Assembly: GCA_040218145.1 (NCBI GenBank)
Contig: JAVJQK010000070.1
Span: 186,001 to 250,000 of the forward strand
DNA length: 64,000 nt
Reading direction: 5' to 3'
Source of the DNA: Sandaracinaceae bacterium
GTDB lineage: Bacteria > Myxococcota_A > Polyangia > Polyangiales > Sandaracinaceae
This document shows, in pieces, positions 25,705 through 63,821 of the stretch; position 1 is the first letter of the stretch, and every line of letters starts with the position of its first letter. The notes beneath the pieces are model-generated. The model searched no databases. It saw only the letters and a program-made list of their open reading frames with translations, and was not told the origin of the DNA. A program made the translations under genes and the position numbers.

Positions 25705-25753
25705 CGACCGTTCACATAGGCCCTTCGCCCGGACTTCGGCTAGGCTGAAGCCC

Positions 25754-42221: not shown

Positions 42222-45200
42222 TCACGCCTGATCGTGCCGCGCTTCGGCCCGCTTCGACGACGGCGCGCCGCTGGCGGGTCCGATCCCCTCCGATCGCATC
42301 CACTTCGCGAAAGAGGTCATGATCCGCCCCACCTCGAGGTTGTTCGCGGTGATGTCCTCCGGGTAGCTCCACGCGAGCAGGAAGTCGTTGCTCGGCGCGT
42401 CCATCCAGTAGCGGTCGAAGCTCCCGTGCTCGTCGAGGTCGCCGATGACGAACTTCGACTTGTGCTCGGTCTCGTGGAGGAAGCCGTTGCCGCCGTAGAG
42501 GGTGCCGTCGAAATCCACGGTGACCTCACCGTTGAGGCGGACGGGCATCGGGGCGCTCTCGAGGTTGATCATCGAGAGCGCCTCGCCCTCGGCCCAGCGC
42601 TGGCGCAGCCGCTGGCCGATCTCGTGGAGCCCTCGCGCGAAGGCGCGCTTCTTCTCCTCGTCCCAGAGGACGCCGAGCGCGAAGTTGATCTGGACGCGCT
42701 CGAACCCCAGCGACGCGATGTGGAAGAAGTTCTCCGGCATCTGCTCCACCCCCGCGGGGTGCACGACCATGATGACGTCGTAGGGGAGGCCCGAGGCGAG
42801 GATGGCCTGCCGCCGCGTGGCGATGCCCTCGGCGTAGCTGTCGCGGCCCTTGATGAGCGAGGGCCGGAAGCGCCGCTGGGTGGCCGGGTCGCCGTCGAGG
42901 GAGAGCTCGAGCTTGACCGGGTAGCCCGAGAGCCAGCCGAGCGTCTCCTCGTCGAGTGACCAGCCGTTGGAGGACAGGACGAAGCGGAGGTCCTTTCCGA
43001 GGCGCCGCGCCTGCTCGACGCCGTAGTCCATCCCGTGTCGGATCAGCTCCCGCTCCATCAGCGGCTCGCCGCCGAAGAACTGGAGCATCAGGCGCTCTCG
43101 CCGGCTCGAAAGGAGCAGATCGATGGAGCGCTCGAGCGTGCGCAGGTCCATCACGCGGCCGTCCTGCTTGGGGATGTAGCAGTAGCGGCAACGCAGCTCG
43201 CACTGCCAAGTCGGGATGACCACGAGGCGGGGCACTTCGCTGTGCTCGTAGCGGCGGAAGGTGGGCAGCCACTCGCGTCGATCGCCGAGCACCGCCGTCG
43301 CGGCCGCGAGCGCGGTGGCGTCGCCCGCGCCCGCCTTCGCCCCGTCGGCGGAGCGCCGCGCCTGCTGCTCCCGGAGCTCGCGCAGCATCTCGAAGGCGAG
43401 CTGCCGCGGCGCGTCGTCGAGGCGACGGAGCAGGCGCTCGCCCTGCCGCCGCTCTTCGCCGGGCGGGAGCAAGGCGAGGCGCTCGCCGTAGAGCGCGCGC
43501 AGGCGCACCAGGCTCTCGGTGTAGAGGCGCGCGTCGGTGAGGAACTCCTCGTCGACCGCCCGCGCCACCCAGGGGTCGGAGGGGATGTCGTGCTCGACGA
43601 ACGGGTAGTCGAGCTCGGGGTAGCCCGGGACGCTGCGGTGGTCGCGCAGCCGCATCGTGTCCTGCTGACCTTTGCGGACCTTGTTCTTGTGGCTGGCCGA
43701 CGGGAAGTACGAGACGAGGTGCGGCACCACCGGGAAGCGGAGATGGAAGTACTTGGGGTGGCGGAGCTTGAGGCGGCAGAGCTCCTCGACGCTGTCGATC
43801 AGGTCCTCGGCCGTCGTCTCCGCGTTGGAGACGATGAAGTAGGCGTCCATGTGGATGCGCCGCTGGCTGAGCGCGCCGACGATGGCGCGGATGTGACTGA
43901 CCCGGTAGCCCTTGGCGAGACGGAGCAGCTCGCGATCGGAGAAGGTCTCGACCCCGATCTGGAGGTAGCTGCTCCACCCGCGCGAGCGGTGATCGGCCAC
44001 GAAGTCGCGCAGCGGGATCGGCCGGCCGTGATCGGCGAAGAGGCTCGGCGTCAGGACCTCCGAGAGCTCGGGGTCGAGCTCGGGGAGCAGCGCGCGGCCG
44101 TCGCGACGGCAGAGATCGGCGACGGAGGCCTGCACCGAGCTGAGCCGGAAGCGGCTCTCGGGCAGCGCGCGGAAGAAGTCGATCGCGCGCTGCTTGTCGC
44201 AGACGAAGTCGTCGTCGCTGATGTGGACGCGGTACGCGTTGTCCGGGACGTCGTCTCCGAAGAGCTCGGCGAAACGCGCCTCGTACCGGCCGAGCAGCGC
44301 GAAGATGCCCTCGGCGCTGCGCGCCTGGTAGCGATGACGGCCGATGATCGTGCAGAAGCTGCAGTGATGCAGGCAGCCGCGCGAGGTGGAGATCTCGATG
44401 CCCCCCTCGATGTGACGCGGCTCGAGGTGGGAGAGATCGAGCTCGACCCCGTCGAGATCCTCGACCTCGACCACCTTGGCGGGGTTGCCGGAGACGAGCT
44501 GCGCGCCCGCGCGATCGATGGCCAGGATCCCGTCGAGCGACATCAGGGCCTCGACCTGGGCCTCCGTGAACGGGACGTCGACGTCGCTCGTCCCCACGAT
44601 CCGCGCCAGCGCGGGGACGAAGTACTCCCCCGCGCCTCGGCACACGAAGCTGACGCCAGGCAGGTGGGCGGCGACGTGCTCGGGCGTCCGGCTGGGCATC
44701 ACGCCGCCGACGGCGATGTGGGCCCTCGAGCCGAGCTCGCGCAGGGTCTCGATGAGCGAGACGACGCCCTCGAAGTAGCCCTCGAGGAGGGTGATCCCGA
44801 TGAGGTGGACCTCGCGCGAGGCGAGGACCTCGCGCAGCGCGTCCATGCCGAGGATCGGACGCTCTCGGCCGGTGATCGACATCTTCACGTTCGCGAGCAC
44901 GACCTCGGTGGGGCTGCCCGCGAGCGGGCTGAGCATGTGGAGCACGCCGCCCGAGATCTCGCGATCGTTGTGGGGCATGTCGCTGTTCATCAGCGACTCG
45001 AAGAAGAGCGCCGCGTTGGGCACGGCCTCGATCGCGGGAGCGGTGACTGCGGCGCGCCGACCGCGACCAGGCGAGAGCAGGTCGCGCAGCAGCGCCTCGG
45101 CGGGGTACGGCGACGGCTCCTCGTGCAGAGCGACGCCGTCGAGGTGCACGACCTCTCGCGCGGCTTCCCCGGCCACGTCCATCCGAGGAACCGTCCCGGC

Positions 45201-45458
45201 CGGGCCGAGCCGCAGCTCGAGCGCGCGATCGCTGCCGTCGCCGAGCGCCTCGAGCGCGTGCCCGGCCGCCGCCGCCGCGCGCAGCAGGGCCGCGACCGGC
45301 AGCCCCTCGCCGCTCTCGTCGATGACGCGGAGCCGCGCCGGGTGCGCGATGTCTCGACGGCGAAGGGCCGGCTCCCCGGCCGCCGCCCCCTCGGGGGCCT
45401 CGAGCCAGAACCAATGAGGCGAAGCGCCGCTCCGCAGGATCTCCAGGCGCTTCGCCAT
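42222..45458 (-). CDS. Tandem radical SAM protein: B12-binding-like rSAM fused to a second rSAM domain
   Basis: 1078 residues from ATG 45458, preceded by AAGGAGAG. Residues about 180-300 look like a cobalamin-binding Rossmann domain (VHLIGITLLEGYFEGVVSLI, HIAVGGVMPS) without a clear DxHxxG. The first rSAM cluster is C362-x3-C366-x2-C369 (SRGCLHHCSFC), followed by a HemN-like barrel (SSYLQIGVETFSDRELLRLA). A linker (about 640-740) leads to a second, separate rSAM cluster C753-x3-C757-x2-C760 (TWQCELRCRYCYIPKQ) with FFGGEPLMERELI. No C-terminal Cys cluster is seen. B12-rSAM enzymes commonly methylate unreactive carbons; the second module is of the peptide-modifying kind. Divergent from 45621, separated by inverted-repeat element 1. 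Confidence 0.88.
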   Translation of the reverse strand: MAKRLEILRSGASPHWFWLEAPEGAAAGEPALRRRDIAHPARLRVIDESGEGLPVAALLRAAAAAGHALEALGDGSDRALELRLGPAGTVPRMDVAGEAAREVVHLDGVALHEEPSPYPAEALLRDLLSPGRGRRAAVTAPAIEAVPNAALFFESLMNSDMPHNDREISGGVLHMLSPLAGSPTEVVLANVKMSITGRERPILGMDALREVLASREVHLIGITLLEGYFEGVVSLIETLRELGSRAHIAVGGVMPSRTPEHVAAHLPGVSFVCRGAGEYFVPALARIVGTSDVDVPFTEAQVEALMSLDGILAIDRAGAQLVSGNPAKVVEVEDLDGVELDLSHLEPRHIEGGIEISTSRGCLHHCSFCTIIGRHRYQARSAEGIFALLGRYEARFAELFGDDVPDNAYRVHISDDDFVCDKQRAIDFFRALPESRFRLSSVQASVADLCRRDGRALLPELDPELSEVLTPSLFADHGRPIPLRDFVADHRSRGWSSYLQIGVETFSDRELLRLAKGYRVSHIRAIVGALSQRRIHMDAYFIVSNAETTAEDLIDSVEELCRLKLRHPKYFHLRFPVVPHLVSYFPSASHKNKVRKGQQDTMRLRDHRSVPGYPELDYPFVEHDIPSDPWVARAVDEEFLTDARLYTESLVRLRALYGERLALLPPGEERRQGERLLRRLDDAPRQLAFEMLRELREQQARRSADGAKAGAGDATALAAATAVLGDRREWLPTFRRYEHSEVPRLVVIPTWQCELRCRYCYIPKQDGRVMDLRTLERSIDLLLSSRRERLMLQFFGGEPLMERELIRHGMDYGVEQARRLGKDLRFVLSSNGWSLDEETLGWLSGYPVKLELSLDGDPATQRRFRPSLIKGRDSYAEGIATRRQAILASGLPYDVIMVVHPAGVEQMPENFFHIASLGFERVQINFALGVLWDEEKKRAFARGLHEIGQRLRQRWAEGEALSMINLESAPMPVRLNGEVTVDFDGTLYGGNGFLHETEHKSKFVIGDLDEHGSFDRYWMDAPSNDFLLAWSYPEDITANNLEVGRIMTSFAKWMRSEGIGPASGAPSSKRAEARHDQA

Positions 45459-45480
45459 TCTCTCCTTCAACGACTGATAG

Positions 45481-45632
45481 GCTAGAGCACATCTCAAAAC
45501 CACGGACCGAGCGTGGCCGAGCCGTGGCTGGGCGCGACGAGGAAATGCGGGGTATTTTCGAGGAGCGAACGGCCGCGGATGGGGCCCGTCCCGCCGGACA
45601 GGGGACGGGAGGGTTTTGAGATGTGCTCTAGC
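45481..45632. repeat. Inverted-repeat element 1 (21-bp perfect arms, related core)
   Basis: Left arm 45481-45501 and right arm 45612-45632 are perfect 21-bp reverse complements beginning GCTAG and ending CTAGC, enclosing 110 bp. The interior has a core near 45535-45571 (CGACGAGGAAATGC...GTATTTTCGAGGAG) that closely resembles the core of element 2 (52330-52496). It also has a nested stem CCCGTCCC / GGGACGGG (45585-45592, 45602-45609). It lies between divergent rSAM and plus-strand genes; the right arm contains the ATG at 45621. Confidence 0.8.
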
Positions 45633-46295
45633 GTAGTGGCAGCGACAGACGCGCTCCAGGGTCAAATGCAGCGGCTGCTGCTCGAGGCCGCGTTCCCCGG
45701 AGGCGTGCCCGCGCTGATCACCGACCTGCTGCCGCCCGACTGGGACCCCGCCGCGTTCGGCGCCGGGCCCATCTTCTCGAGCGACGGCGCGGCTCGCTTC
45801 TACGTGGCCGACGCGGAGGATCGCGAGGCGTGGACGGAGGCGGTCCTGCGCGCCGCGCCCGATGCCCGCGAGCTGCTGGAGGCGGCCCGCCCGGGGACGC
45901 GGCGCATGGTCGACACCGACGGCGACCGCGTGGACGTGTACCTCGATGATCTGCACCTGCGCGGCCACGGCGCGGTCATGTGCGAGGTGCACCATCATCC
46001 GTCGGGCGCGCGCAGTCGCCTCGTGCTGGTCGACTCGCCCGTCGACCTCGGCGTGCTGAGCCCGGCCTGGGGCGTGGGGCGCTTCGCGCGGCGCGTCGGC
46101 GACCGCGAGAGCCTGCTGTGGATCAGCGAGGCCAAGCACACCGGCCGGGCCGCGGAGGTCGAGGCGCTGGCCGCGTCGATGCTCACGCTGCCGCCGGCCT
46201 ATCGAGCGCTGAAGGCGCGCCTGCCCGAGCTCTACGTCGAGGGGGTCGAGCTGCACCCGGACGGACGCGTGGACCTGACCCCGGGGGTCCTTTGA
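45621..46295 (+). CDS. Hypothetical protein of the modification locus
   Basis: 224 residues from ATG 45621, which has GGGAGGG (45607-45613) 7 nt upstream; ATG 45666 is the next possible start. Soluble, no signal peptide. N-terminal hydrophobic helices (LLLEAAFPGGVPALITDLL) are followed by an alpha/beta region with a His cluster (MCEVHHHPSG) and a basic/aromatic segment (WISEAKHTGRAAEVEALAAS). I do not recognise the family. The stop overlaps the TTG start of the halogenase-like gene, so the two are translationally coupled and probably work together. The start codon lies in the right arm of inverted-repeat element 1. Confidence 0.7.
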   Translation: MCSSVVAATDALQGQMQRLLLEAAFPGGVPALITDLLPPDWDPAAFGAGPIFSSDGAARFYVADAEDREAWTEAVLRAAPDARELLEAARPGTRRMVDTDGDRVDVYLDDLHLRGHGAVMCEVHHHPSGARSRLVLVDSPVDLGVLSPAWGVGRFARRVGDRESLLWISEAKHTGRAAEVEALAASMLTLPPAYRALKARLPELYVEGVELHPDGRVDLTPGVL

Positions 46296-48523
46296 GCGCG
46301 CCCGGCGAGTGCGACGTCGCCATCATCGGCGGAGGCCCCGCGGGGAGCCTCTGCGCCAGCCTGCTGCGCCGGCAGTGCCCAGCGCTGCGTGTGGTCGTCA
46401 TCGAGAAGGAGGCCTTCCCGCGACACCACGTGGGCGAGGCCTGCCTGCCGGGCTGGGGCACCATCCTGGAGCGCGCCGGCGTGCTCGAGGCGGCCCACCG
46501 CGCGGTCCGCGTCGACAAGCTGGGGTTCATCTTCAACTGGGGCCCGCCCGAGTCGCGTCACTACTGGACGGCCGACTTCCGCGACGAGCACGGCGTGATC
46601 CCCATGGGCTCCTGGCACGCAGATCGGGCCGAGCTGGACCGGGTGCTGCTCGCGCACGCCGCGTCGTCGGGCGCGGAGGTGCTGCAGCCCGCCAAGGTCG
46701 TGCGGGTGACGCCGCTCAGCGGGCCGACGCCGCCCCCGATGTCGGGCGACTCCCCCGGCTTCGAGCTGCGCCTGGAGCAGGACGGCGAGACGCGGACGCT
46801 CCGGGCCGCGCGCGTCATCGACGCCTCGGGGCAGGCCCGGCTGCTGGCGCACCAGTGGTCGCTGCCCACGCGGCGCTACGACGACATGAACAACTTCGCG
46901 GTCTACGGCTACTGGCGCGGCGGCGGCGTGGAGGAGGGGGGCGCGCCGCTCCGTGGGCGGGAGCGCTGGGCGGTGGTCTCGAGCACGGAGCTCGGCTGGG
47001 TCTGGCACATCCCGATCGGCGAGACCCTCTCCAGCGTCGGCCTGGTCACCACCAAGGAGACCCTGCAGGAGATCGGCGGCGAGCGTCTGCGCGAGACCTA
47101 CCTCGCGGCCGTGCGCGGCACCGACCGGGTGGGCGAGCTGCTCGAGCGCGCGGAGTACGTCGGCGCCCGCCCCGATGGCGAGCCCGAGCGGGTGAGCGCG
47201 GCGCAGGACTGGTCGTACCGGACCGAGCAGCTCTGCGGCGCCGGCTGGTACACCATCGGAGACGGCGCGGTCTTCGTCGACCCCGTGCTCGCGAGCGGGC
47301 TGACCCTCGCGTCGAACGGGGCCTCGATGGTCGCCAACGCGATCACCACGCTCGAGCGCGACGCCAGCGTCGATCCCGAGAAGCTCCGCGCGAGCGTGGC
47401 CGCCACCTACGCGGACCTGTCCTCCGCGTATCACCGCATGGCGCGGGTCTGGTACCGGCGGAACACGCGCGCCGAGGGGCTGCACTGGCAGGCCAGGCAG
47501 GAGCGGCTGCGCGTGCTGGGCGCCGGCGCGCTCTTCGAGGACGACGCCGACGCGTTCACCGCCGCGTGCCTCGGAGCGATCAACAGCCCTCTCGACGCCG
47601 CGCTGAGCGAGCGGTCCCGGAACATCTGGGGCACCGAGTACTTCAGCTGGATCAGCGCCGACCGCCTGTTCGGCCGCGCGGGCGAAGACGACGGGCGCCG
47701 CTCCGACGCCGAGGGCGTGCACGGGGCGCGGGCCCTGGCGCGGCGCGCGCTGCTCACTCGCTGGCGGCGCCTGATCGACGGCCGCGTGCGCCTGCGGACG
47801 CGCTGGTCGCTCGCCGACGGCTATCACACCAACCGCTTCGTCGACTCCTGGCAGCCGATTCGCTACGTGGAGATCCCCCTCGACGATCCGCTCGACCCGC
47901 ACCTGCGCGTGACCTGCGCCGCGTTCGAGGACTGCCCCGAGGGCGTCTTCCCGGCGCTGGACGGCGAGCAATGTGTGCGCCCCGCGCTCGAGGCGCTGCT
48001 CCGTCCCCACGCGATCGGGAGCCGCGAGCGCGACGCTCGCCTGCAGGCGTTCTCCGAGACGCTCCTGCAGCTGGACATGCTCGGGCTCCTCGAGATCGAG
48101 CCGAGCCCGCCGCCGCCGAGCCTCGAGGACCACCCGCTTCTCCGGGTCGTGGCCGACATCGCGCTGCGCGCGCTCGATCGTCCCGCGCGCCTCCTGCTCG
48201 AGGTGGACTGGCTGGGCGAGGGGGTGTGGATGCGTGTGCTCACCGACGACGGCGCGCACTGGGCGCGCCTGTTCGACGCCCGCGGGGCGAGCCGCGAGGG
48301 CGGCGCCCGGAGCACCGCGACCACGCACATCCGGTGGCCGCGAGAGGTCAGCCCCTGGCTCGATGGCGTGGTGGCCGCGATGCTGCGGCGGCTGGGCAAG
48401 CTGGAGCGAGGCCGTCGCGCGGAGGAGCTCCGGGCCTGCTGGGACGTCATGCGCACCGCTCCCGGTGTGGGCATCGCCTTCGACCACACGCCGGGGCAGA
48501 GGCCGGTGGCGCAACCTCTCTGA
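46292..48523 (+). CDS. Flavin-dependent halogenase-like monooxygenase with extra C-terminal domain
   Basis: 743 residues from TTG 46292, overlapping the upstream stop. The N-terminal FAD site IIGGGPAGSLCASLL (11-25) is followed by EKEAFPRHHVGEACLPG. The halogenase signature W236-x-W238-x-I240-P241 (GWVWHIP) is intact, and K76 in VDKLGFIFNWG matches the position of the catalytic Lys of phenol/pyrrole halogenases (K..G..F.WG). GDGAVFVDPVLASGLTLA is the usual flavin loop. Residues beyond about 500 form an additional helical/beta domain not typical of free-standing halogenases; it might bind a carrier or peptide. Halogenation of a peptide or tethered substrate is inference from the rSAM/peptide neighbourhood. 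Confidence 0.82.
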   Translation: MSAPGECDVAIIGGGPAGSLCASLLRRQCPALRVVVIEKEAFPRHHVGEACLPGWGTILERAGVLEAAHRAVRVDKLGFIFNWGPPESRHYWTADFRDEHGVIPMGSWHADRAELDRVLLAHAASSGAEVLQPAKVVRVTPLSGPTPPPMSGDSPGFELRLEQDGETRTLRAARVIDASGQARLLAHQWSLPTRRYDDMNNFAVYGYWRGGGVEEGGAPLRGRERWAVVSSTELGWVWHIPIGETLSSVGLVTTKETLQEIGGERLRETYLAAVRGTDRVGELLERAEYVGARPDGEPERVSAAQDWSYRTEQLCGAGWYTIGDGAVFVDPVLASGLTLASNGASMVANAITTLERDASVDPEKLRASVAATYADLSSAYHRMARVWYRRNTRAEGLHWQARQERLRVLGAGALFEDDADAFTAACLGAINSPLDAALSERSRNIWGTEYFSWISADRLFGRAGEDDGRRSDAEGVHGARALARRALLTRWRRLIDGRVRLRTRWSLADGYHTNRFVDSWQPIRYVEIPLDDPLDPHLRVTCAAFEDCPEGVFPALDGEQCVRPALEALLRPHAIGSRERDARLQAFSETLLQLDMLGLLEIEPSPPPPSLEDHPLLRVVADIALRALDRPARLLLEVDWLGEGVWMRVLTDDGAHWARLFDARGASREGGARSTATTHIRWPREVSPWLDGVVAAMLRRLGKLERGRRAEELRACWDVMRTAPGVGIAFDHTPGQRPVAQPL

Positions 48524-48640
48524 GCGCGGCTCCGCCACCAGTCCGTTAAAGAACCTCGCTCCTCGTCTCACGTCGCCCCGAACCGAGAACCGGGCCGTCG
48601 CGCTCCGAGATCCTTCGGGCTCGGTACTTCAACGGCCTGC

Positions 48641-48646
48641 TATCCT
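48641..48646 (+). promoter_or_regulatory. -10-like hexamer before the hydroxylase gene
   Basis: TATCCT ends 8 nt before ATG 48655 and there is no SD, again suggesting a leaderless message. No convincing -35 is seen 17 bp upstream. Confidence 0.35.
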
Positions 48647-48654
48647 GCCGCGCG

Positions 48655-49197
48655 ATGCACGACGAAGCGACGCGGCGCGCCTACCCGTTCCTGGACCAGC
48701 TCGAGGCCCACGCGGGCGAGATCCGCGAGGAGGCGCTCGGGCTCGACCCCGCGCTCTGGGTGGACATGCCCGAGTATCCCAACCTGACGCTCTTCGTCTT
48801 GAACACGGGCATCTGGGGAGACGGCTACCCCGGCCTCGACGTCGCGGCGAACCGGGCGCGCTGCCCGCGGACCGCGGCGGTGCTCGACGCCATCGGCGGC
48901 GTGGAGATGGTGGGCTTCATGTGCATGCCTCCGGGCGTGACGATGAGGCGGCACACCGACCCGAGGGACGACGACCTGGTGCGCTGTCACCTGGGCCTGG
49001 TGCTGCCGCCGAACGAGCAGGCCTGGTGGCCGGAGGGCAAGGCGCGCCTGATGGACCCGCGCCAGCCCCACTGGGGGCGCAACGAGTCCGAGCGTCGGCG
49101 CCTGACGCTGCAACTCGACGTGCGGATGCCCTTCGTGGTGCCGGAGAACGCGTGGGGACCCTGGCGCCCCGACGAGCCTCCGTCGTCGAGCGTGTGA
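48655..49197 (+). CDS. Aspartyl/asparaginyl beta-hydroxylase-like 2-oxoglutarate dioxygenase
   Basis: 180 residues. The Asp/Asn hydroxylase family pattern is visible: MPPGVTMRRHTDP (iron ligand H100), then LVRCHLGLVLPPNEQ (2-oxoglutarate-side R110/H112), then RQPHWGRNESERRRLTLQLD with the second iron ligand H139 and R149, and MPFVVPENAWGPW at the end. In the family, such Fe(II)/2-oxoglutarate enzymes hydroxylate Asp/Asn side chains or related peptide residues. No signal peptide, cytoplasmic. It stands 131 bp after the halogenase-like gene and converges on the rSAM-TPR gene, making it a plausible additional tailoring enzyme of the locus. Confidence 0.82.
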   Translation: MHDEATRRAYPFLDQLEAHAGEIREEALGLDPALWVDMPEYPNLTLFVLNTGIWGDGYPGLDVAANRARCPRTAAVLDAIGGVEMVGFMCMPPGVTMRRHTDPRDDDLVRCHLGLVLPPNEQAWWPEGKARLMDPRQPHWGRNESERRRLTLQLDVRMPFVVPENAWGPWRPDEPPSSSV

Positions 49198-49213
49198 TCC
49201 ACGCTCTGGCCGC

Positions 49214-52327: not shown

Positions 52328-52329
52328 GG

Positions 52330-53703: not shown

Positions 53704-53720
53704 CGAGAGGGGCCGGTCGG

Positions 53721-55471: not shown

Positions 55472-57321
55472 GTGGTCGAGCCCGCGCCGGCGCGGCGGCG
55501 ACGGAGGAGGCGCTCCTCGGCGATCAGCCCGAGCGGGTCGCGGACCGCCTCGGTCGGGGCGTCGAAGCCGGGCAGGCTCGGGCTCGCGCCCACCGGCGGC
55601 GCGCCCTTGGCCACGTCCGGGAGCGGCTCGGGGAAGACCTCGCGCAGCCGCGCGTCGGCCGCGTCGGCCTCCGCGTCTCCGCCCAGCGGGGTCAGGATGC
55701 CCAGGCCCTGGTCGCGCAGGAGGTTGATGTGAGCGCCCCGGCACCGCGCCTCGACCACGCACTCCCGGCACCGCAGCGACTTGGCGCGGTAGCCGCTCCG
55801 CACGTGCAGCCGCGCGACCTCGTCCACCTGCAGCCGGCCGCTCTCCGCGCCGAAGAGCGAGCGCTCGAGGACGGCGGTCGGCTCGCGGTACCGCATGCCG
55901 GGGGCCAGGCAGACGGGCAGGCCGCTGACCTCGAGGGGCGCGACCGTGGCCTCGGCGAGGGCGGCGAAGAACCGACGGGGGAAGCGCAGATCCTGCTCGC
56001 GCGCGTCGCGCAGCAGCTCGTGGCTGGGCTGGTGCAGCCGGACGCGATCCGCGTGCCGCGCGAGGAGCGCCGCGTTCGCGAGCAGCCACGGCGCGACGTC
56101 CGCGCTCAGCTGGACCTCGACCGTGTGGGGGCAGCCCTCCGGCACGTCCGCGATCCAGCGCTCGAGCTGCTCCGTGGTGACGGCGATCAGCTCCAGGGGC
56201 GTCTCGGCGGGCAGGTCCTCGAGCGAGATCGCCGAGACGCTGCGCACCCGCAGCGGGGCCGGGATCTCCTCGAGCGCGCGGAGCAGCCCGGCGCGATCCT
56301 CGACCTGCACGCCGACCCGGGTGCAGCCGAAGGGGAGCTGGCCGTCCGGCAGCGCGACCGGCGCTTCGGGCAGCTCGCCGATGTCCCAGACCTCGAAGCG
56401 CGCCTCCTTCTGGCGGGTGACGGTCTCGTCCAGGGTCGTGCACATGGGCGCGATGAAGCAGTGCTGACAGCGCTCGGGATCGCGGCAGTCGAAGGGCGCG
56501 CCGTGATCGAGGTAGCGCTGCACCATGAACCGGCGCCCGTTGATCTCGTCCAGCATCTTGTGCGGATCCTGGATGAGGTCCTCGAGACCCTCGAGGTAGG
56601 GCACGGGGAAGCGGTTGGTCCAGACCGTGACCCGCGGGTGGCGGGCGAGCCGGAAGACCTTGTGGAGCACGCCGAGGTGCTCCTTCGGGTCGTAGAAGAG
56701 CTCGTCGCGGTTGTCGAAGGCGGACGCCTGCGGGATCACGTGCAGCAGATCGAACTCGCGGACGCCGAGCGCCATCGAGAGCTCCACGATCTTGTCGAGC
56801 ACGCCGACGTTCTGCTTATTGATGCAGACATCGACGTTGACGATGGGCCGGCCGTCCGCGATGGAATTCACGATGGCCCGGGTGATCCGGCGGAACGCGC
56901 CCGGGGTGCCCGTCAGGCGGTCGTGCAGCGCGGCCGTGTGCCCGTGCAGCGAGTAGGTGATCTCGCCCAGGCCCGCGTCGAGCGCCTGCTCGAGGAAGGC
57001 GGGCTCGCCGAAGAAGTAGCCGTTCGTGACGGTCTGGACCTTCCGGTAGCCGAGCTCTTTGGCGTACGCGACGAAGGCCATGAACTCGGGGTGGAGGCTC
57101 GCCTCGCCGCCCGAGATCACCACCCGCGTCGCGCCGCGCTCGCGCCCCAGCCGGAGATCGGCGCGCACGTCCTCGACCGAGAGGAACACGCCACGCGGGG
57201 TGTCCGAGTCGAGGCAGAACAGGCAGCGGCTGTTGCAGGCGGTGACCGCACGGACCCAGTGCTTCGTCTCGTTCGCGATGGCCTCGCGGCGCAACATCTG
57301 CTCTTGATCGGGGGCCCGCAT
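55468..57321 (-). CDS. Radical SAM protein with a second, cluster-less rSAM-like module
   Basis: 617 residues. The active cluster is C29-x3-C33-x2-C36 (TACNSRCLFCLDSD), followed by ISGGEASLHPEFM. The first half ends with CQHCFIAPMCTT, an auxiliary C-x2-C-x5-C site. From about residue 330 a second module follows whose C-terminal end, LEVSGLPVCLAPG...CRECVVEARCRG, matches the equivalent end of its neighbours (GLPLCVLPQ / CRSCSFTDLCEG in 62646). Its N-terminal half has no CxxxCxxC. It thus looks like an rSAM fused to a degenerate rSAM copy. First gene of the minus-strand operon, divergent from the plus-strand Hxs operon (105-bp gap). Confidence 0.85.
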   Translation of the reverse strand: MRAPDQEQMLRREAIANETKHWVRAVTACNSRCLFCLDSDTPRGVFLSVEDVRADLRLGRERGATRVVISGGEASLHPEFMAFVAYAKELGYRKVQTVTNGYFFGEPAFLEQALDAGLGEITYSLHGHTAALHDRLTGTPGAFRRITRAIVNSIADGRPIVNVDVCINKQNVGVLDKIVELSMALGVREFDLLHVIPQASAFDNRDELFYDPKEHLGVLHKVFRLARHPRVTVWTNRFPVPYLEGLEDLIQDPHKMLDEINGRRFMVQRYLDHGAPFDCRDPERCQHCFIAPMCTTLDETVTRQKEARFEVWDIGELPEAPVALPDGQLPFGCTRVGVQVEDRAGLLRALEEIPAPLRVRSVSAISLEDLPAETPLELIAVTTEQLERWIADVPEGCPHTVEVQLSADVAPWLLANAALLARHADRVRLHQPSHELLRDAREQDLRFPRRFFAALAEATVAPLEVSGLPVCLAPGMRYREPTAVLERSLFGAESGRLQVDEVARLHVRSGYRAKSLRCRECVVEARCRGAHINLLRDQGLGILTPLGGDAEADAADARLREVFPEPLPDVAKGAPPVGASPSLPGFDAPTEAVRDPLGLIAEERLLRRRRAGAGSTT

Positions 57322-57403
57322 CGCTCAGCGAGTCACCTTAGCAGAGTCCGGCGCGGCGCCGCGCTGTTCCCATCGAGCGCTTCCTTCGCCCCCCCCGATT
57401 CGA

Positions 57404-57409
57404 TATGCT
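57404..57409 (+). promoter_or_regulatory. -10-like hexamer in the divergent Hxs promoter region
   Basis: TATGCT in the 105-bp gap between the divergent operons, 17 nt before ATG 57427. A TTCCTT sequence about 17 bp upstream could be a weak -35. Both operons must be controlled from this short region. Confidence 0.35.
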
Positions 57410-57426
57410 GGCGCCGAGGCTTTTCG

Positions 57427-57984
57427 ATGGCGACACGCAGAGAGTGGTTGGTGTACACGGGCCTGACCGGACTGGCGGCGGCCACCGGGACGCTGGCTCG
57501 GTCTGCCGCGGCGCCGATCCAAGGGGCCATCGAGGGCGCCGACGCTCCCCCGGGACATGCGGCGTCCGAGCCTGACCCCGACGTTTCCCCGGGAGATGTG
57601 ACGCCCGAGGCGCCGCCGCCGTGGTGGGCGCTCGCGCCGCTCCGCGAGGGCTCGGCGCTCGCGGCAGGCTGGAGCCTGGCCTCCCTGAGCCCCGTGCGTG
57701 AGGGTCGGGCGGTGCTGGAGCTGGCGCACGAGGACGGCGCCCGCGCCGAGGTGCACATGCGGAGACGCGGATCGCGCGAAGCCGCCGGCCTCGCGCAGTC
57801 GGAGCGCTTCGACTTCTTCCTGATGAACGGCTCGCGGGGCGACGAGGAGACCCGCGAGGTCCTCGGCCGGCTGATCCTCGGGCTCGCCCTCCACGTTCGG
57901 CGGAACGAGCTCGACGCCCCGGAGGAGCTCATGGCCAGCTTCACCGCCCATCGGGAGACCGGCCAGAGGACGTCCCGAGCGTGA
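57427..57984 (+). CDS. Tat-signal-like protein, first gene of the Hxs operon
   Basis: 185 residues. The N-terminus MATRREWLVYTGLTGLAAAT has a twin-Arg motif (T-R-R-E-W-L) and a hydrophobic stretch, then an Ala/Pro/Asp linker with PGH and PGD turns. It could be a Tat-exported or membrane-tethered protein. The remainder (about 75-175) begins with WWALAPLREGSALAAGWSLA and continues as a beta/alpha domain ending in helix ETREVLGRLILGLALHVRRN. No Cys residues, no recognised family. Its stop overlaps the GTG of the HxsD-like gene, so it is co-translated with the modification enzymes. It may be a regulator, an export partner or a further substrate. Confidence 0.65.
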   Translation: MATRREWLVYTGLTGLAAATGTLARSAAAPIQGAIEGADAPPGHAASEPDPDVSPGDVTPEAPPPWWALAPLREGSALAAGWSLASLSPVREGRAVLELAHEDGARAEVHMRRRGSREAAGLAQSERFDFFLMNGSRGDEETREVLGRLILGLALHVRRNELDAPEELMASFTAHRETGQRTSRA

Positions 57985-58421
57985 GCGCGCCGAGCGTGAG
58001 CGGGCCGGGACCGGTCGTCCACGACGATCGTGCGTCGCTGCGGATCGACGAGCGGGTGTTCCCGCTCGAGGTGATCTACGGCGCCAGCCTCCACCTGCTC
58101 GAGCGCGCCTACGTCCGCCTCGAGCGCGTCGGCGACGGCGTCGTGGAGCTGCAGATCCGCGGCAAAGAAGGCGGCGAGCCCCGCGCCCTCGCGGGAGAGC
58201 TGGCCAACGAGATGCTCAACCAGTGCATCCGCCACCGCCTCGGCGATCGGGCGCGGCGGCTGCGCGAGGCTTACCTCGCCAAGTCCTTCTCCAATCGGAA
58301 GTCGACCCTCGACGCGCTCCTGAGCGAGCTCGACGACGAGGAGCTCGCGGAGGACGCGCTCGAGGTGCGCAGCCAGCCCGAGGCCACGAGCCCGGCGGCG
58401 GCCACGGAAGGTGACGCATGA
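57981..58421 (+). CDS. hxsD: His-Xaa-Ser system protein HxsD-like
   Basis: 146 residues from GTG 57981, overlapping both neighbours by 4 nt. The HxsD pattern is clear: RVFPLEVIYGASLHLLERAY, a beta strand VVELQIRGKE, then LAGELANEMLNQCIRHRLGD and a basic helix DRARRLREAYLAKSF. A C-terminal acidic tag (ELDDEELAEDALEV) is shared with the paralogue at 53721. HxsD occurs with HxsB/HxsC rSAM maturases and His-Xaa-Ser repeat proteins; its role may be in substrate binding, but the mechanism is unproven. Its place directly before HxsB-like and the repeat protein supports the call. Confidence 0.82.
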   Translation: MSAPSVSGPGPVVHDDRASLRIDERVFPLEVIYGASLHLLERAYVRLERVGDGVVELQIRGKEGGEPRALAGELANEMLNQCIRHRLGDRARRLREAYLAKSFSNRKSTLDALLSELDDEELAEDALEVRSQPEATSPAAATEGDA

Positions 58422-58660
58422 GCGAGCGAGCCGATCAGCGAGCCACGCTGAGCGCCGATCTCTATTCCATCGCGGCGCTCCGGGCGAGCGCCGAGGCGTT
58501 CTCCTCGCTGGCCGCGGTGAGCGTCGAGCAGGGTGACAAGGAGCACACGATCACGATCACGGATGCACGAGAAGATGTGTTGGACCGCGTCCTCGACGAA
58601 CTGCTCAACCACGCCCTCGAGGGGACGATCCTCGGGCTGCGGGAGAGCGAGGCCCGATGA
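58418..58660 (+). CDS. Short HxsD-like protein (third paralogue, N-terminus reduced)
   Basis: 80 residues; ATG overlaps the upstream stop and its own stop overlaps the start of the HxsB-like gene. It corresponds to the helix-strand-helix core of HxsD (LYSIAALRASAEAFSSLAAV, EHTITITDAREDV, LDRVLDELLNHALEGTILGL), matching the LANEMLNQCIRHRL part of the previous protein. It lacks the N-terminal segment and the acidic tag. The HxsD relationship is an inference from pattern and position rather than strong identity. Confidence 0.6.
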   Translation: MSERADQRATLSADLYSIAALRASAEAFSSLAAVSVEQGDKEHTITITDAREDVLDRVLDELLNHALEGTILGLRESEAR

Positions 58661-60159
58661 AGAAGACCATCCCGCTCCCCATCCTCGAGGCGGACGAGAA
58701 CGCCCTCGGGTTCTTTCGCCACGGGCGGATCGACGACCGCGTCATCCTGACCAACGACGCCGGCGAGTGGCAGCTCATCGGCGAGGAGGACTTCCAGAAG
58801 CTCCTCAAGGGCGAGATCGAGCCCGCGCACCCCGACTACGAGTCGCTCGTCGACAAGGGGTTCGTGCGGGACGGCCTGAACATCGAGGCGCTGGCCTCGC
58901 GCCTGCGGCGGAAGAAGGGCTTCGTCGGCCAGGGCCCGCACCTCCACATCGTCATCACGACCCTGCGCTGCAACCAGAGCTGTCAGTACTGCCACGCCTC
59001 GCGGACCGAGATGGACCAGGTCTCGACCGACATGTCGATGGAGACCGCGAAGAAGGTCGTGGACCTGGCCATGCAGACCACGTCTCCCTACGTGAACTTC
59101 GAGTTCCAGGGCGGCGAGCCGACCGTCAACTTCCCGGTCCTGAAGTTCATCGTCGAGTACAGCCGCGAGAAGAACAAGACCGAGAAGAAGCTCCTCGAAC
59201 ACTCCCTGGTCACGAACATGACCTACATGACGGAGGAGCACGCCGAGTGGCTGATGGACAACGAGGTGATGGTCTGCACCAGCCTCGACGGCCCGAAGGA
59301 GCTCCACGACGCCAACCGCCGCTGGAAGAGCGGGGGGAGCGCGTACGAGGACGTCGTCGGCTGGATGAAGCGCTTCAACGAGGGCTACATCGCGCGCGGC
59401 AAGGACCCCCGCCTCTGGTCCGTGGACGCGCTGATGACCACGACCCGCCGGAGCCTCGACCTCGGCAAAGAGATCGTCGATCTCTACGTGGAGATGGGGC
59501 TCAAGACCATCCACCTCCGGCCCCTCAACCCCTACGGCTTCGCGGTCGGCACCTGGAAGGCCATCGGCTACACGGCCGAGGAGTACCTCGACTTCTACGC
59601 GCGCACGCTCGACTACATCATCGAGCTGAACCAGAAGGGCGTGGAGATCACCGAGGGGACGGCGTCGACCTTCCTGATGAAGATGCTCACGCCCGACGAT
59701 CCCAACTTCGTCGACATCCGCTCCCCCTGTGGAGCCGGCACGGGGCAGGTCGCGTACGACTACGACGGCTCGATCTTCACCTGTGACGAGGGGCGCATGG
59801 TCTCGGCCATGGGCAGCGACCTCTTCCAGATCGGCGACGTCTCGAGCAGCAGCTACACGGACATGCTGCAGCACCCGACCGTCAAGGCGCTGGCCGTGGC
59901 GAGCCTCCAGGACGCGCTCCCGTCGTGCCACACGTGCTGGAACAAGCCGTACTGCGGAGTCTGCCCCATGCACGACTACATGCAGGGCGGCGACATCTTC
60001 GGGCAGCGCCCGCGCTCGCCCAAGTGCAAAGAGCACTACACGATCGCGACGCTCCTGTTCGAGAAGCTCGCCCGAGACGAGGACGGCTCCCTCGAGAAGA
60101 TGTTCCGACGCTGGACGCTCCGGCGTCCGCGTTCCGAAGCGGCTTCCTGCAGCGCCTGA
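58657..60159 (+). CDS. hxsB: His-Xaa-Ser system radical SAM/SPASM maturase HxsB-like
   Basis: 500 residues. An N-terminal recognition-like segment (FRHGRIDDRVILTNDAGEWQ) is typical of HxsB. The rSAM cluster is C105-x3-C109-x2-C112 (TTLRCNQSCQYCHASR), followed by FEFQGGEPTVNFPV. The C-terminal SPASM-type auxiliary clusters include DIRSPCGAGTGQ, IFTCDEGRMV and CHTCWNKPYCGVCPMHDY, with a last Cys in SPKCKEHY. This is the standard architecture of HxsB, which modifies His-Xaa-Ser repeat substrates through radical chemistry. The gene overlaps the HxsD-like gene upstream, and the repeat protein follows after 9 bp. Confidence 0.88.
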   Translation: MKKTIPLPILEADENALGFFRHGRIDDRVILTNDAGEWQLIGEEDFQKLLKGEIEPAHPDYESLVDKGFVRDGLNIEALASRLRRKKGFVGQGPHLHIVITTLRCNQSCQYCHASRTEMDQVSTDMSMETAKKVVDLAMQTTSPYVNFEFQGGEPTVNFPVLKFIVEYSREKNKTEKKLLEHSLVTNMTYMTEEHAEWLMDNEVMVCTSLDGPKELHDANRRWKSGGSAYEDVVGWMKRFNEGYIARGKDPRLWSVDALMTTTRRSLDLGKEIVDLYVEMGLKTIHLRPLNPYGFAVGTWKAIGYTAEEYLDFYARTLDYIIELNQKGVEITEGTASTFLMKMLTPDDPNFVDIRSPCGAGTGQVAYDYDGSIFTCDEGRMVSAMGSDLFQIGDVSSSSYTDMLQHPTVKALAVASLQDALPSCHTCWNKPYCGVCPMHDYMQGGDIFGQRPRSPKCKEHYTIATLLFEKLARDEDGSLEKMFRRWTLRRPRSEAASCSA

Positions 60160-60168
60160 GAGTACGAC

Positions 60169-60555
60169 ATGTCCGACGACGACAAGCGAAGGCCCCTCCC
60201 ACTGCTCCGCTCCGAGACCGAGCCGGAGCGGAGCCGCGTCCGACGCGGCTCGAGCGCCGAGAGCCCGTTCCCCAAGCACTCGAGGTCGCCCGCGCAGTCG
60301 CTGCTCGCCGGCGAGCGGGAGGTCACGACCCGCCCCGGCCCGCTCGAGGAGCTTCTGATGGAGGCCGACGGGCTCGCCGAGGACCCCGCCTTCGACGGGA
60401 TCATGCTCGTCCAGCACTGCTCGCACAGCTCGCACGGATCTCACGGATCGCACGGATCTCACGGCTCCCACGGGTCGCACGGATCGCACGGGTCGCACGG
60501 ATCACACGGCTCGCACGGATCGCACGGCTCTCACGGCTCGCATGGGCAGTGGTAG
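60169..60555 (+). CDS. His-Gly-Ser repeat protein, probable modified precursor (HxsA-like)
   Basis: 128 residues. The N-terminal part (about 1-80) is polar and Arg/Glu/Pro-rich, without a signal peptide. It ends in an acidic helix-like leader (EELLMEADGLAEDPAFDG, then IMLVQ). The C-terminus is HCSHSSH, followed by 12 consecutive Gly-Ser-His units, ending GQW. This is a His-Xaa-Ser repeat with Xaa mostly Gly, as in HxsA proteins, the presumed substrate of HxsB/HxsC. Repeat codons vary widely, pointing to selection on the peptide. It is embedded between HxsB-like and another rSAM gene, whose start overlaps its last codons. Confidence 0.88.
   Translation: MSDDDKRRPLPLLRSETEPERSRVRRGSSAESPFPKHSRSPAQSLLAGEREVTTRPGPLEELLMEADGLAEDPAFDGIMLVQHCSHSSHGSHGSHGSHGSHGSHGSHGSHGSHGSHGSHGSHGSHGQW
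60436..60543 (+). repeat. Twelve 9-bp units encoding Gly-Ser-His
   Basis: Twelve contiguous 9-bp units read GGN-TCN-CAY. Gly codons alternate between GGA, GGC and GGG, Ser uses TCT, TCG, TCC and TCA, and the last His is CAT. The variation makes recent slippage unlikely and argues the His-Gly-Ser register is kept by selection. Confidence 0.9.
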
Positions 60556-61624
60556 CCCGGGCGACGCGCGCCGCCGACGCACGGGTCGCTCGGGTGGCAG
60601 GGATCGCAGCAGCCTGATCCTCACGATCACGCGCGAGTGCGACCTCCGTTGCAGCTACTGCCCCACCGTCAAGGAGGGCTGGCCGAGCCTCGACCCGGCG
60701 CAGATCGAGCGGGCCATCGCCCTCTTCTGCGATCGCTTCGGGGGCGGCGACGTGAAGCTCTTCGGGGGCGAGCCGCTGCTCTTCCCCGCGCTGGTCGACG
60801 CCGCGCTCGAGGCGGCCCAGCGCGATCCCCGCGTGCACAGGATCTACCTCTCGACCAACGGGCTCGGCCTCGACGAGGCGCGCCTCGAGCGGCTCGCGCG
60901 AGAGCCCAAGCTCGTGCTGACCGTGTCGATGGACGGAGAGCCCGCCGACCACCGTCGCCTGCGTCGCCCGCTGAACGTCGTGGACGGCGAGACGACCCGC
61001 GACGCCTACGCGCACCTGCGCGCGCTCATGCCGACGCTCCGGCGCATGCCCCGGGCCGTCGTCACCCAGACCATCGCGCCGGCCACCGCCGCGCGCGCGG
61101 CGCGCAACTTCGCGCACCTGAGGCAGCTCGGCTGGTGGCGCTTCAACCTGCTCCCCGGCTACTACCTCCCCTGGCGCGCGGAGCAGCTCACGGACCTGCG
61201 TGAGGGCTTCGCGGAGATCGGACGCGACATCCGGCGCGCCTGGGCCGAGGGCGAGCGACTCTACGTCCGCAACCTCTTCACGCTCGCGCCGACCCCCTTC
61301 TTCAACGTCGGCATGGTGGTGGACTCGGACGGCAGCATCCACGCCTCGAACGTCGGCCTCGCCTCCTCGATGAGCGAGCTGCTCGACGTGACCCGGGTCG
61401 GGAGCCTCGACGATCCGCCGAGCCGCGAGGCCCTCTCCGCGTCCGCGGCCGAGCTCCCGCGCCTCCTCGAGGAGACCGTGCCCGCGCCGATCCTGGAGTC
61501 CACGCGCGCGGTCGACGCGGCGCTGAGCGCGCTGGTGCGAGACCTCTACCCGGCCTACCTCCGGGCTCGCGCGCGGCGTCGCGCGTCCGCCGTCGCGCTC
61601 GGCGCTCCCGGAGGCGCGGCGTGA
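60542..61624 (+). CDS. Radical SAM protein of the Hxs locus
   Basis: 360 residues. ATG 60542 lies inside the last codons of the repeat-protein gene (14-nt overlap), so translation is coupled; no separate SD is visible. A basic N-terminus (RRRRTGRSGGRDR) precedes the cluster C33-x3-C37-x2-C40 (ITRECDLRCSYCPTVKEG) and LFGGEPLLFPALV. The barrel continues to about residue 260 (LVLTVSMDGEPADHRRLRRP, WWRFNLLPGYYLPW), then a short helical C-terminus. There is no auxiliary Cys cluster. A place beside the repeat protein makes it a candidate HxsC-like maturase, but the family match is not certain. Confidence 0.83.
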   Translation: MGSGSPGDARRRRTGRSGGRDRSSLILTITRECDLRCSYCPTVKEGWPSLDPAQIERAIALFCDRFGGGDVKLFGGEPLLFPALVDAALEAAQRDPRVHRIYLSTNGLGLDEARLERLAREPKLVLTVSMDGEPADHRRLRRPLNVVDGETTRDAYAHLRALMPTLRRMPRAVVTQTIAPATAARAARNFAHLRQLGWWRFNLLPGYYLPWRAEQLTDLREGFAEIGRDIRRAWAEGERLYVRNLFTLAPTPFFNVGMVVDSDGSIHASNVGLASSMSELLDVTRVGSLDDPPSREALSASAAELPRLLEETVPAPILESTRAVDAALSALVRDLYPAYLRARARRRASAVALGAPGGAA

Positions 61625-62649
61625 GACACCTGCCCGTCCTCGCGGACCACACACCGGCGCAGCCGTTGGCCGAGGCGCCGCCGGAGCGGCCTGACTGGAT
61701 CGGGCCGCGCGGCGAGCGCACCGAGTGGCTCGAGCTCCACCTCACCTATACCTGCCCCGAGCGCTGCCTCTTCTGCTCCGAGGAGCACCGGATGCGGCGC
61801 TACAAGCCCTACCCGGTCACCTGGGGGCGCACCGCGACGGTGATCCGCGAGCACGCGCGGCGGGGTGTGCGGAGGGTCCACCTGACGGGCGGCGAGCCGA
61901 CCATTCACCCGCGCTTCGTCGACACGCTGAAGCTGGCGAAGAAGCTCGGCATGCGCACCTCGGTCGGCACCATCGGCACGATGCTCGCGCGGCGCGACTT
62001 CGCCGAGCGCGCGCTCCCGTTCCTCGACGAGGCGCTCTTCTCGCTGCACGGGCCGAGCCCCGAGGTGCACGACGCGATGGCGGGCCGGGAGGGCTCGTTC
62101 GCGCAGGTGACCACGGCGCTGCGGCTCAGCCGCGAGGTCGCGCCCCGCTTCCACCCCTACGTCAACATCGTGATGACCCGGAAGAACGTCGCGCAGCTCC
62201 CCGAGACGGTGACGCTCGCGGCCTCGCTCGGGGCGGAGCTGGTGGTGATCTCCAACCTGACCCCGGAGGGCCTCGGGCTCGACGCGTACGAGGAGCTGGC
62301 GGTGCCGCTCGACCGCCTCGCCGAGGTCCTGCCGCGCCTGCCGGCGTTGGCCGGAGACGTGCCGCTGCGCTTCTTCGGTGTGCCGATGTGCCTGCTCGGG
62401 CCCCACCGCATGCTCAGCAACGATCTCCACTGGGACCCGCGGGTCACCGTCGAGTGGGCGGACGCGGGCCCGGACAAGGTCCGCTTCGCCGACCACTACA
62501 ACTGGGATCCGGGGCGCAAGCGGATCCACGTCGAGGAGTGCGAGCCCTGCGCGATGAAGGGGGTGTGCATGGGGGTCTTCGACCGCTACGCCGAGCTCTA
62601 CTCCACCGACGCGCTGAAGCCCGAGACGAAAGCGGAGGTGAGCCCGTGA
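61621..62649 (+). CDS. Radical SAM protein with C-terminal auxiliary cluster
   Basis: 342 residues from a GTG overlapping the upstream stop. Cluster C45-x3-C49-x2-C52 (TYTCPERCLFCSEE), LTGGEPTIHPRFVD, and ALFSLHGPSPEVHDAM. The C-terminal half carries FFGVPMCLLG and the auxiliary pattern C-x2-C-x5-C-x-G (CEPCAMKGVCMG). This makes it a member of the same subfamily as 25754, 52492, 55468 and 62646. The N-terminal 40 residues are Pro/Glu-rich. Part of the coupled plus-strand operon; substrate presumably the His-Gly-Ser peptide. Confidence 0.85.
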   Translation: MRHLPVLADHTPAQPLAEAPPERPDWIGPRGERTEWLELHLTYTCPERCLFCSEEHRMRRYKPYPVTWGRTATVIREHARRGVRRVHLTGGEPTIHPRFVDTLKLAKKLGMRTSVGTIGTMLARRDFAERALPFLDEALFSLHGPSPEVHDAMAGREGSFAQVTTALRLSREVAPRFHPYVNIVMTRKNVAQLPETVTLAASLGAELVVISNLTPEGLGLDAYEELAVPLDRLAEVLPRLPALAGDVPLRFFGVPMCLLGPHRMLSNDLHWDPRVTVEWADAGPDKVRFADHYNWDPGRKRIHVEECEPCAMKGVCMGVFDRYAELYSTDALKPETKAEVSP

Positions 62650-63821
62650 GCGCCGAGCTCGACGTGAGAACCGGGCGCGCGCGCGGGCTCCAGGCCGACA
62701 GCACGTATCGCGATCCTCGACGCAACGTCGAGATCAACATCGGCAAGACATGCAACAACAAGTGCGTGTTCTGTCTCGACGGGATGCCCACCCGCGAAGA
62801 CAAGGCCTTCATGCCGTTCGAGGACATGAAGACGGAGCTCGAGCGCTGGCGCGCGGAGGGACATCTCTCGGTGGGCTTCCTCGGCGGCGAGCCGACCACG
62901 TACCCGCACATCATCCCGTCGGTCGCGTACGCGAAGGAGCTCGGCTACACCCGCATCGCGCTGGCCACCAACGCGATGATGCTGCGGAGAGAGCCGTTTT
63001 TGGACAAGCTCGTGGAGGCCGGCCTCAACCGCGTGACGGTCTCGATGCACGGCCACACCGCGCCCCTCGAGGATCGCCTGACGATGGTGCCGGGCGGCTT
63101 CGAGAAGAAGCTGACGGCCCTCCGCAACCTCACCGCGCGGAGAGACCGCGGGCTGATGACCGAGGGCGTCTCGGTCAACGTCGTCCTCAACGGCTGGAAC
63201 TACCGGGCCCTGCCGAAGATGATGAAGTTCTTCCTCGAGACGGTCGGCCTCCACGACATGCGGGTGAACTTCGTCCGCCCGGAGGGCTACGCCGAGGGCA
63301 ACCCTGATCTGGTCCCCACGTTCACCGACGTGGTGCCCTACCTCGTCAAGGCGATTCTCCTCAACGAGTACCACTTCCGCCGCGTCTTCACCTTCGGTGG
63401 GCTGCCGCTGTGCGTGCTCCCGCAGGAGCTCCTCCGGAGCGAGACGCTGCTCCGGAAGTACGCGGGCGACCTCTATCGCGACCTGAGCACCGACTGCTCC
63501 ATCCGCACCGAGTCGACCATCCCCGACGGCTTCGAGGACGGCGTCTCCGAGATCGAGGGAGGTCGCGCGCGCTTCAACTGGCAGGACCGCAAGCGCTTCG
63601 ACCTCAAGAAGCACCCCGAGGCGTGCCGCAGCTGCTCCTTCACGGATCTCTGCGAGGGGGTGTGGCGCGGCTACCGCGACCTCTACGGCGAGGGCGAGAT
63701 CGCGCCGCTGCGCTGGGAGCGAGGCGCCGCGAAGCGCCTGCTGCCGCGCGTCGATCGGGCGCCCGCGGCGAAGGTCGCCCCTCGCGCGAAGTTCGGCCGG
63801 CGGCTCGTCGTCATCCAGTGA
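62646..63821 (+). CDS. Radical SAM protein with C-terminal auxiliary cluster
   Basis: 391 residues from GTG 62646, overlapping the previous stop. Cluster C36-x3-C40-x2-C43 (GKTCNNKCVFCLDGM), LGGEPTTYPHIIPS, RVTVSMHGHTAPLEDRLTMV. The C-terminal FGGLPLCVLPQELL and auxiliary C-x2-C-x5-C-x-G (CRSCSFTDLCEG) match the neighbours and the C-terminal module of 55468. The first-half sequence also resembles 55468 (SMHGHTA versus SLHGHTA). Last recognised gene of the Hxs operon; no terminator hairpin was identified in the 92 bp that follow. Confidence 0.87.
   Translation: MSAELDVRTGRARGLQADSTYRDPRRNVEINIGKTCNNKCVFCLDGMPTREDKAFMPFEDMKTELERWRAEGHLSVGFLGGEPTTYPHIIPSVAYAKELGYTRIALATNAMMLRREPFLDKLVEAGLNRVTVSMHGHTAPLEDRLTMVPGGFEKKLTALRNLTARRDRGLMTEGVSVNVVLNGWNYRALPKMMKFFLETVGLHDMRVNFVRPEGYAEGNPDLVPTFTDVVPYLVKAILLNEYHFRRVFTFGGLPLCVLPQELLRSETLLRKYAGDLYRDLSTDCSIRTESTIPDGFEDGVSEIEGGRARFNWQDRKRFDLKKHPEACRSCSFTDLCEGVWRGYRDLYGEGEIAPLRWERGAAKRLLPRVDRAPAAKVAPRAKFGRRLVVIQ

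Follow-up and report, generated by a model that had tools for sequence, protein, structure and literature searches.

The Hxs systems, named from sequence, are a recognised gene system that is biochemically unexplained. A locus from a marine bacterium of the family Sandaracinaceae (positions 42222-63821 of the 64,000-nucleotide stretch of DNA analysed here, henceforth the window) combines a His-Xaa-Ser repeat protein with a dense set of radical SAM (rSAM) genes and raises the question of whether all the encoded enzymes form one pathway and act on one substrate. The reading that we prefer, with a probability of roughly one half, is that of a multi-enzyme ribosomal-peptide modification system acting on the repeat protein HxsA4, in which HxsB would crosslink the repeats, a HExxH protein would hydroxylate them, the rP-rC3 pair would act on the terminus, and the remaining enzymes would decorate the same product.

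Gene content and extent of the locus

The gene inventory of the original prediction is borne out: the locus encompasses eight rSAM genes with nine intact CxxxCxxC motifs, one HxsA4, three HxsD-like proteins, a HExxH protein, a halogenase-type enzyme and an Asp/Asn-hydroxylase-like protein. The rSAM genes encode a B12/rSAM protein fused to a PapB-like domain, a HemN-like protein with TPR, rC1, rC2, HxsB, rP, rC3 and rC4. The Cys triad is kept in every rSAM domain, and the GGE/GGGTP motif in all except the first, B12-type domain. The genes of the window were re-called by codon usage; for the first, minus-strand gene, a start near 45458 is likelier than the originally listed 46256, and a conserved gene absent from the original list, orf128, is located at 57598-57984 on the plus strand. 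Overlaps of 4-14 bases are shared by most adjacent core genes, which form an operon-like plus-strand run (57598-63821) and a divergent minus-strand run that starts at 57321. The locus reaches about 8.2 kb past the end of the window, to a tenth rSAM gene and a conserved halogenase gene (255635-258243 of the contig), the counterparts of which in the closest relative, L004, are 65% and 57% identical and likewise lie beyond rC4. Between rC4 and the tenth rSAM gene, there is a gene for a 1487-aa Cys-rich, secreted-looking protein with Stig1-like repeats (249976-254439 of the contig; L008:9976-14439), and the equivalent position in L004 is occupied by a gene for a different Cys-rich, lipoprotein-like protein.

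The whole genome yields 68 rSAM hits in 11.06 Mb, which translates into about 0.14 expected per 22 kb compared to at least 8 found (Poisson P ~2e-12 for 8 or more in 22 kb). A protein with both CxxxCxxC and GGE was detected in none of 20 control 20-kb stretches, which were positioned manually at round coordinates within six related genomes (G315, G314, G283, G264, G218 and G105) and do not amount to true random sampling. Elsewhere in the same genome, there is an rSAM gene some 16 kb ahead of the locus and with no apparent link to it (window 25745-26959; C70:211775-212215). The genome also carries further rSAM clusters (C7:109640-119333, C115:34051-37200 and C41:83970-87769) and another locus with HxsA4 and HxsB, which is of the HGSW type and has an rSAM set and an orf128 copy of its own (C33:317000-347500; L009, L010).

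In the core (52492-63821), HxsB, a radical SAM/SPASM maturase (58657-60159, plus strand; TIGR03978, 517.8 against a cut-off of 370), HxsA4 (60169-60555, plus; NF038313, 108.2 against 55), the HxsD-related protein D3 (58418-58660, plus; NF038315, 52.3 against 41) and the HExxH protein score above the curated NCBIfam cut-offs. The latter (54191-55471, minus) belongs to the aKG-HExxH-type peptide beta-hydroxylases given both its TIGR04267 score (100.2 against 40) and the presence of the motif, in the form HETQH, so that hydroxylation is the predicted activity. Among the matches listed, D1, D2, rC1-rC4, rP, the B12 protein and the HemN-like protein fall below every equivalog cut-off. The minus-strand run further includes rC1 (52492-53703), an HxsC-like rSAM protein with a C-terminal CxxCx5C motif (TIGR03977, 101.9 against 267.9) that belongs to an orthologue group present in many A4 loci; D1 (53721-54194; TIGR03976, 34.6 against 50), an HxsD-like protein homologous to D2; and rC2 (55468-57321; NF038332, 84.9 against 500), an HxsC4-like rSAM protein with orthologues in nine other loci and a C-terminal half that carries a second CxxCx5C motif. 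This C-terminal half is not a degenerate rSAM domain (hhalign probability under 2%). The plus-strand run starts with orf128, which has no match in Pfam or NCBIfam; some of its relatives possess Tat-like N-termini, and a fold model built on a three-sequence alignment gave no useful structural match. The next gene encodes the HxsD orthologue D2 (57981-58421; TIGR03976, 28.6 bits), the orthologues of which in L070 and L053 pass the cut-off (55.1 and 57.9 against 50). The predicted model of D2 (core pLDDT ~90), examined as an RRE-like leader binder, shows the element order beta-alpha-beta-beta-alpha; a Foldseek search detected no match at E<=0.001; the best VIA Z was 7.3, and the matches listed included RNA-polymerase L/K-type and ferredoxin-like folds. 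The last gene of the run encodes rC4 (62646-63821), a counterpart of HxsC4 (NF038332, 133.4 against 500); the rC4 of L043 is a true HxsC4 (630.6 against 500), and the window protein falls in its sister clade (support 0.83).

Compared to the canonical Hxs locus (hxsD-hxsB-hxsC-hxsA, as on the Aeromonas salmonicida plasmid NC_009349), the window shares an HxsB member, HxsD-like proteins and a His-Xaa-Ser repeat protein. However, the canonical locus has two rSAM genes including HxsC, whereas the window contains 9-10 rSAM domains and no protein past the HxsC cut-off (the best being the 101.9 of rC1). Two plasmid-borne canonical loci consist solely of hxsD, hxsB, hxsC and either hxsA or hxsA2, which supports the description of the window locus as an expanded one. 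Genes similar to hxsB are found on 328 plasmid records, 304 of them from Klebsiella, and most of these plasmids are predicted to be conjugative. Given that HxsA4 and HxsC4 are already named in NCBIfam, the locus is a variant of the known HxsA4 kind (NF038313, NF038332, NF038315): HxsA4 and the HxsD-related protein are above cut-off, HxsB is present and rC4 is a sister of HxsC4. It differs from these systems in that rC4 is far under the HxsC4 cut-off and HxsA4 ends in HGQW, and it adds the rP-rC3 pair, the B12-rSAM fusion, the HemN-TPR rSAM protein and the halogenase.

Recurrence in Polyangia and the left arm

Analysis of 317 Polyangia genomes identifies HxsA4 above cut-off in 92, HxsB in 102 (104 at E<=1e-60) and the HExxH protein in 88 (90 at E<=1e-6). 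HxsB and HxsA4 co-occur in 88 genomes, HxsB and HExxH in 76, and HxsA4 and HExxH in 71 (Fisher p < 1e-33, with related genomes treated as independent); HxsB is thus present in 76 of the 90 HExxH genomes, and in several, the HExxH gene belongs to the same locus. The orf128 profile is found in 88 of the 317 genomes, 83 of which have HxsB, 80 HxsA4, and 86 either one. Several HxsA4 loci of relatives carry 5 to 8 Cys-motif domains, a count that takes in a few Cys-rich proteins, such as those of L043 and L044, unlikely to be rSAMs. In Polyangia, Hxs loci with multiple rSAMs are widespread and no exception, and the window locus is not unique. It represents a genuine system that recurs, and within the HxsA4 kind, it forms a new subtype in which a link between enzymes and substrate can be tested.

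The closest relative, L004 (G181:C38 by coordinates), shares with the window 12 reciprocal best hits in the same order: rC1, D1, HExxH, rC2, orf128, D2, D3, HxsB (80% identical), A4, rP, rC3 and rC4. The NG86 dN/dS values for these 12 core genes, calculated between these two genomes only, range from 0.20 to 0.64, the highest being those of D1 and orf128; the value for A4 rests on an alignment of repeats, and the left-arm genes are outside the calculation. This range is consistent with constraint. In a phylogenetic tree, rC1, rC2, rC4 and HxsB of the window group with proteins from many other loci; orthologues of rC3, rP and the B12 fusion are few.

The left arm (42222-49197) starts with a minus-strand gene (42222-45458) for a B12-binding domain and a divergent rSAM domain (CLHHCSFC) fused to a second, PapB-like rSAM domain (CELRCRYC) that lacks the auxiliary-cluster cysteines (PF02310, 37.5 against 32.1; PF04055, 58.3 against 29.5). 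Homologues with both domains are present in G211, inside its Hxs locus, and in G249 and G001. The originally proposed methylase-type, B12-dependent enzyme holds as far as this fusion is concerned; methylation itself would be a plausible activity. It is followed on the plus strand by orf209 (45666-46295), which has no match in Pfam or NCBIfam and overlaps the start of the gene for the flavin-dependent halogenase-type enzyme (46292-48523; PF04820, 75.5 against 21), a protein with a C-terminal extension of about 320 aa. The nearest PDB entries for this enzyme are the halogenase 8zop (E 9e-42) and CmlS (4e-37); WxWxIP and the aligned active-site Lys are kept, and FxxPxxSxG has a single substitution, Ala at the Ser position. 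The motifs are those of halogenase-type enzymes; hydroxylases such as QhpG share the halogenase fold family, and hydroxylation instead is possible. The last left-arm gene encodes the Asp/Asn beta-hydroxylase-like protein AspH (48655-49197, plus; PF05118, 59.5 against 22.6), and the adjacent minus-strand gene encodes a HemN-like rSAM protein fused to a TPR array (49214-52327; HemN-type scores below cut-offs, PF04055 45.5 against 29.5, plus TPR).

The left arm is the part of the locus for which a separate pathway has to be considered, i.e., two or more adjacent systems, with the core acting on HxsA4 and the left arm on another substrate. The left arm is missing beside the core of L004; among the stretches read, a repeat protein has AspH nearby only in the window and in the conspecific genome G313; and in G211:C20, a halogenase and PapB-like rSAMs are encoded close to a 36% homologue of orf209, and the 18 kb examined there include no HxsA4. 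The positions of orf209, the halogenase and AspH vary as well, which also weakens the preferred reading. Against separate pathways, the B12/rSAM fusion sits within the HGQW locus of G211 (L070), a stretch of about 20 kb that contains the HemN-like rSAM, a separate TPR protein, HExxH, an rSAM protein related to the one at C70:255635, rC2, the fusion, orf128, D2, D3, HxsB, A4, rP, rC3 and rC4. In G181, a TPR protein, the HemN-like rSAM, a halogenase and an rSAM protein adjoin the core; in the HGQW-type loci of both G211 and G181, the HemN-like rSAM and the TPR protein are encoded by separate neighboring genes. A non-exhaustive look at the short ORFs of the left arm identified no alternative precursor. 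On balance, separate pathways appear to be a minority possibility. One expanded pathway would have been refuted if the extra genes never accompanied the repeat protein; HExxH, the HemN-like rSAM/TPR protein and the halogenase do recur with the system, but beyond the one species AspH does not. A single shared substrate is likely for the core, and the proposal is strengthened for rP-rC3; the left arm may or may not share it.

The HGQW end of HxsA4 and the rP-rC3 pair

The core of the window HxsA4 has the form HCSHSS(HGS)nHGQW, with 14 HxS triplets, and its repeats differ by synonymous codons. Most of the HxsA4 proteins read end in HGSW and a few in HGQW; that of L076 deviates. The pattern HGxHGQW followed by a stop is found in 7 of the 317 genomes, at nine places, eight of which are HxsA4 ends; the ninth, G212:C51, is not, with TGG in place of the stop. 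The gene next to HxsA4 encodes rP (60542-61624, plus), a PapB-like rSAM core without the auxiliary-cluster cysteines; it does not reach the cut-off of the PapB ranthipeptide maturases (NF047865, 75 against 340), and its Cys map contains no CxxCx5C-type auxiliary motif. The following gene, rC3 (61621-62649, plus), encodes an HxsC-like rSAM protein with one CxxCx5C motif, and rP and rC3 are a single fused protein in L006 (678 aa) and in G001 (a 617-aa frame).

At E<=1e-30, with six candidates scored per genome and weaker relatives outside the count, rP is found in exactly the same 7 of the 317 genomes as the HGQW end and adjoins the HxsA4 end in each; the match in G001 (6.7e-32) is close to the threshold. 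The chance of this perfect agreement is about 1e-10 if the 92 HxsA4 genomes are independent. However, the window, L004, L006, L070 and L005 group as a single clade of the HxsB phylogeny (nodes 0.97 and 0.96), so that part of the agreement reflects shared descent; the HGQW loci have much ancestry in common, and the covariation may come down to few events, which counts against the preferred reading. The HxsA4 subtype with HGQW instead of HGSW, tied to rP, is new here, as are the Hxs-associated family represented by orf128, the continuation of the locus past the window and the recurrence of HExxH and of the HemN-like rSAM with its TPR partner. Thioether formation by rP on the Cys of HCS is not a general function, given that G211 (L070) has rP and HASHAS in place of HCS. 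The split between HGQW and HGSW, together with its association with rP-rC3, connects particular enzymes with a substrate feature, so that the chemistry becomes testable with two substrate variants; the choice of genes for a heterologous pathway can be guided by orf128, by the association with HExxH and by the wider boundaries of the locus.

Candidate chemistry of HxsA4 maturation

A literature search for Hxs product structures, HxsA4 products and HGS repeats gave no relevant result. The sequence analysis establishes the gene content, its recurrence, the overlaps typical of operons and the associations of rP with HGQW and of HxsB with HExxH; we infer the chemical steps, their order and a single substrate for all the enzymes. 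The rSAM enzymes HaaB and ScaB form a bond between His C2 and the C-beta of Ala at i+2, and MscB one between Phe and the C-beta of Ser (PMC11002830); ChlH, of the HExxH type, introduces hydroxyl groups at His and Asp of a cyclophane peptide (PMC12636437). Because His-Xaa-Ser fits the HaaB/ScaB spacing, HxsB, served by the HxsD-type proteins, would modify the repeats, most likely through a bond between an imidazole carbon of each His and the beta carbon of Ser at i+2, to yield three-residue cyclophanes; following the ChlH precedent, the HExxH protein would then act on the constrained core by beta-hydroxylation. The HGQW end at the C-terminus would be processed by the rP-rC3 pair, and rC1, rC2, rC4, the B12-rSAM fusion, the HemN-like rSAM and the flavin enzymes might decorate the same HxsA4 product.

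The triceptide systems (ChlB/ChlH, HaaB, ScaB) resemble the window in combining an rSAM enzyme with a HExxH hydroxylase and in the aromatic residue at i with its partner at i+2. However, the sequence relation is weak (as is the match of the HExxH protein to the ChlH structure, 8s5f), HxsB is above the cut-off of no cyclophane-forming family, and the middle Gly and the long perfect repeats are unlike the triceptides described in the cited literature. In addition, neither a protease nor an exporter was identified among the core genes. In the maturation of quinohemoprotein amine dehydrogenase, the rSAM maturase QhpD and the halogenase-like flavin enzyme QhpG act on a protein substrate. The window has an rSAM maturase and a halogenase-like flavin enzyme that score to both families, but below both cut-offs, and no amine dehydrogenase subunits were identified.

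A non-crosslinking change, such as oxidation of the Ser of HxS to formylglycine as in sulfatase maturation, would produce a polymer rich in aldehydes or changed in some other way. In its favor are a score of 107.6 bits for HxsB with the anaerobic sulfatase maturase family, the occurrence of that enzyme among the PDB relatives of HxsB and the many Ser residues in the repeat, but the score is far under the family cut-off of 349, those to the PapB, quinohemoprotein and SCIFF maturases, all crosslink makers, are higher, and the conserved His at i-2 would be left unexplained; this route appears improbable. Somewhat less improbable, if still doubtful, is a product that is chiefly a metal-binding or surface polymer, in which the modifications would stabilise metal sites rather than generate a diffusible natural product. 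His at every third residue, the Tat-like N-termini of some orf128 relatives and the presence of Cys-rich proteins in 25 of 33 A4 loci compared to 8 of 20 control stretches (p=0.018) are compatible with such a polymer; yet, Cys-rich lipoproteins are a common background in the class, and no metal regulator or transporter was identified. With an enrichment that is only mild relative to hand-placed controls, the Cys-rich lipoproteins were not retained as members of the system.

The crosslinked and hydroxylated HxsA4 remains the preferred product. In its fullest and more tentative form, this reading would have a single HxsA4 polymer worked on by about ten rSAM domains, the HExxH protein and flavin halogenases, with HxsB-crosslinked repeats and an HGQW end modified by rP-rC3; if so, few ribosomal peptides known to us would be more heavily modified by enzymes. 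The length of the substrate differs among relatives, with the HGS repeat tracts of HxsA4 in L035 and L038 (from G144 and G145) being far longer than that of the window.
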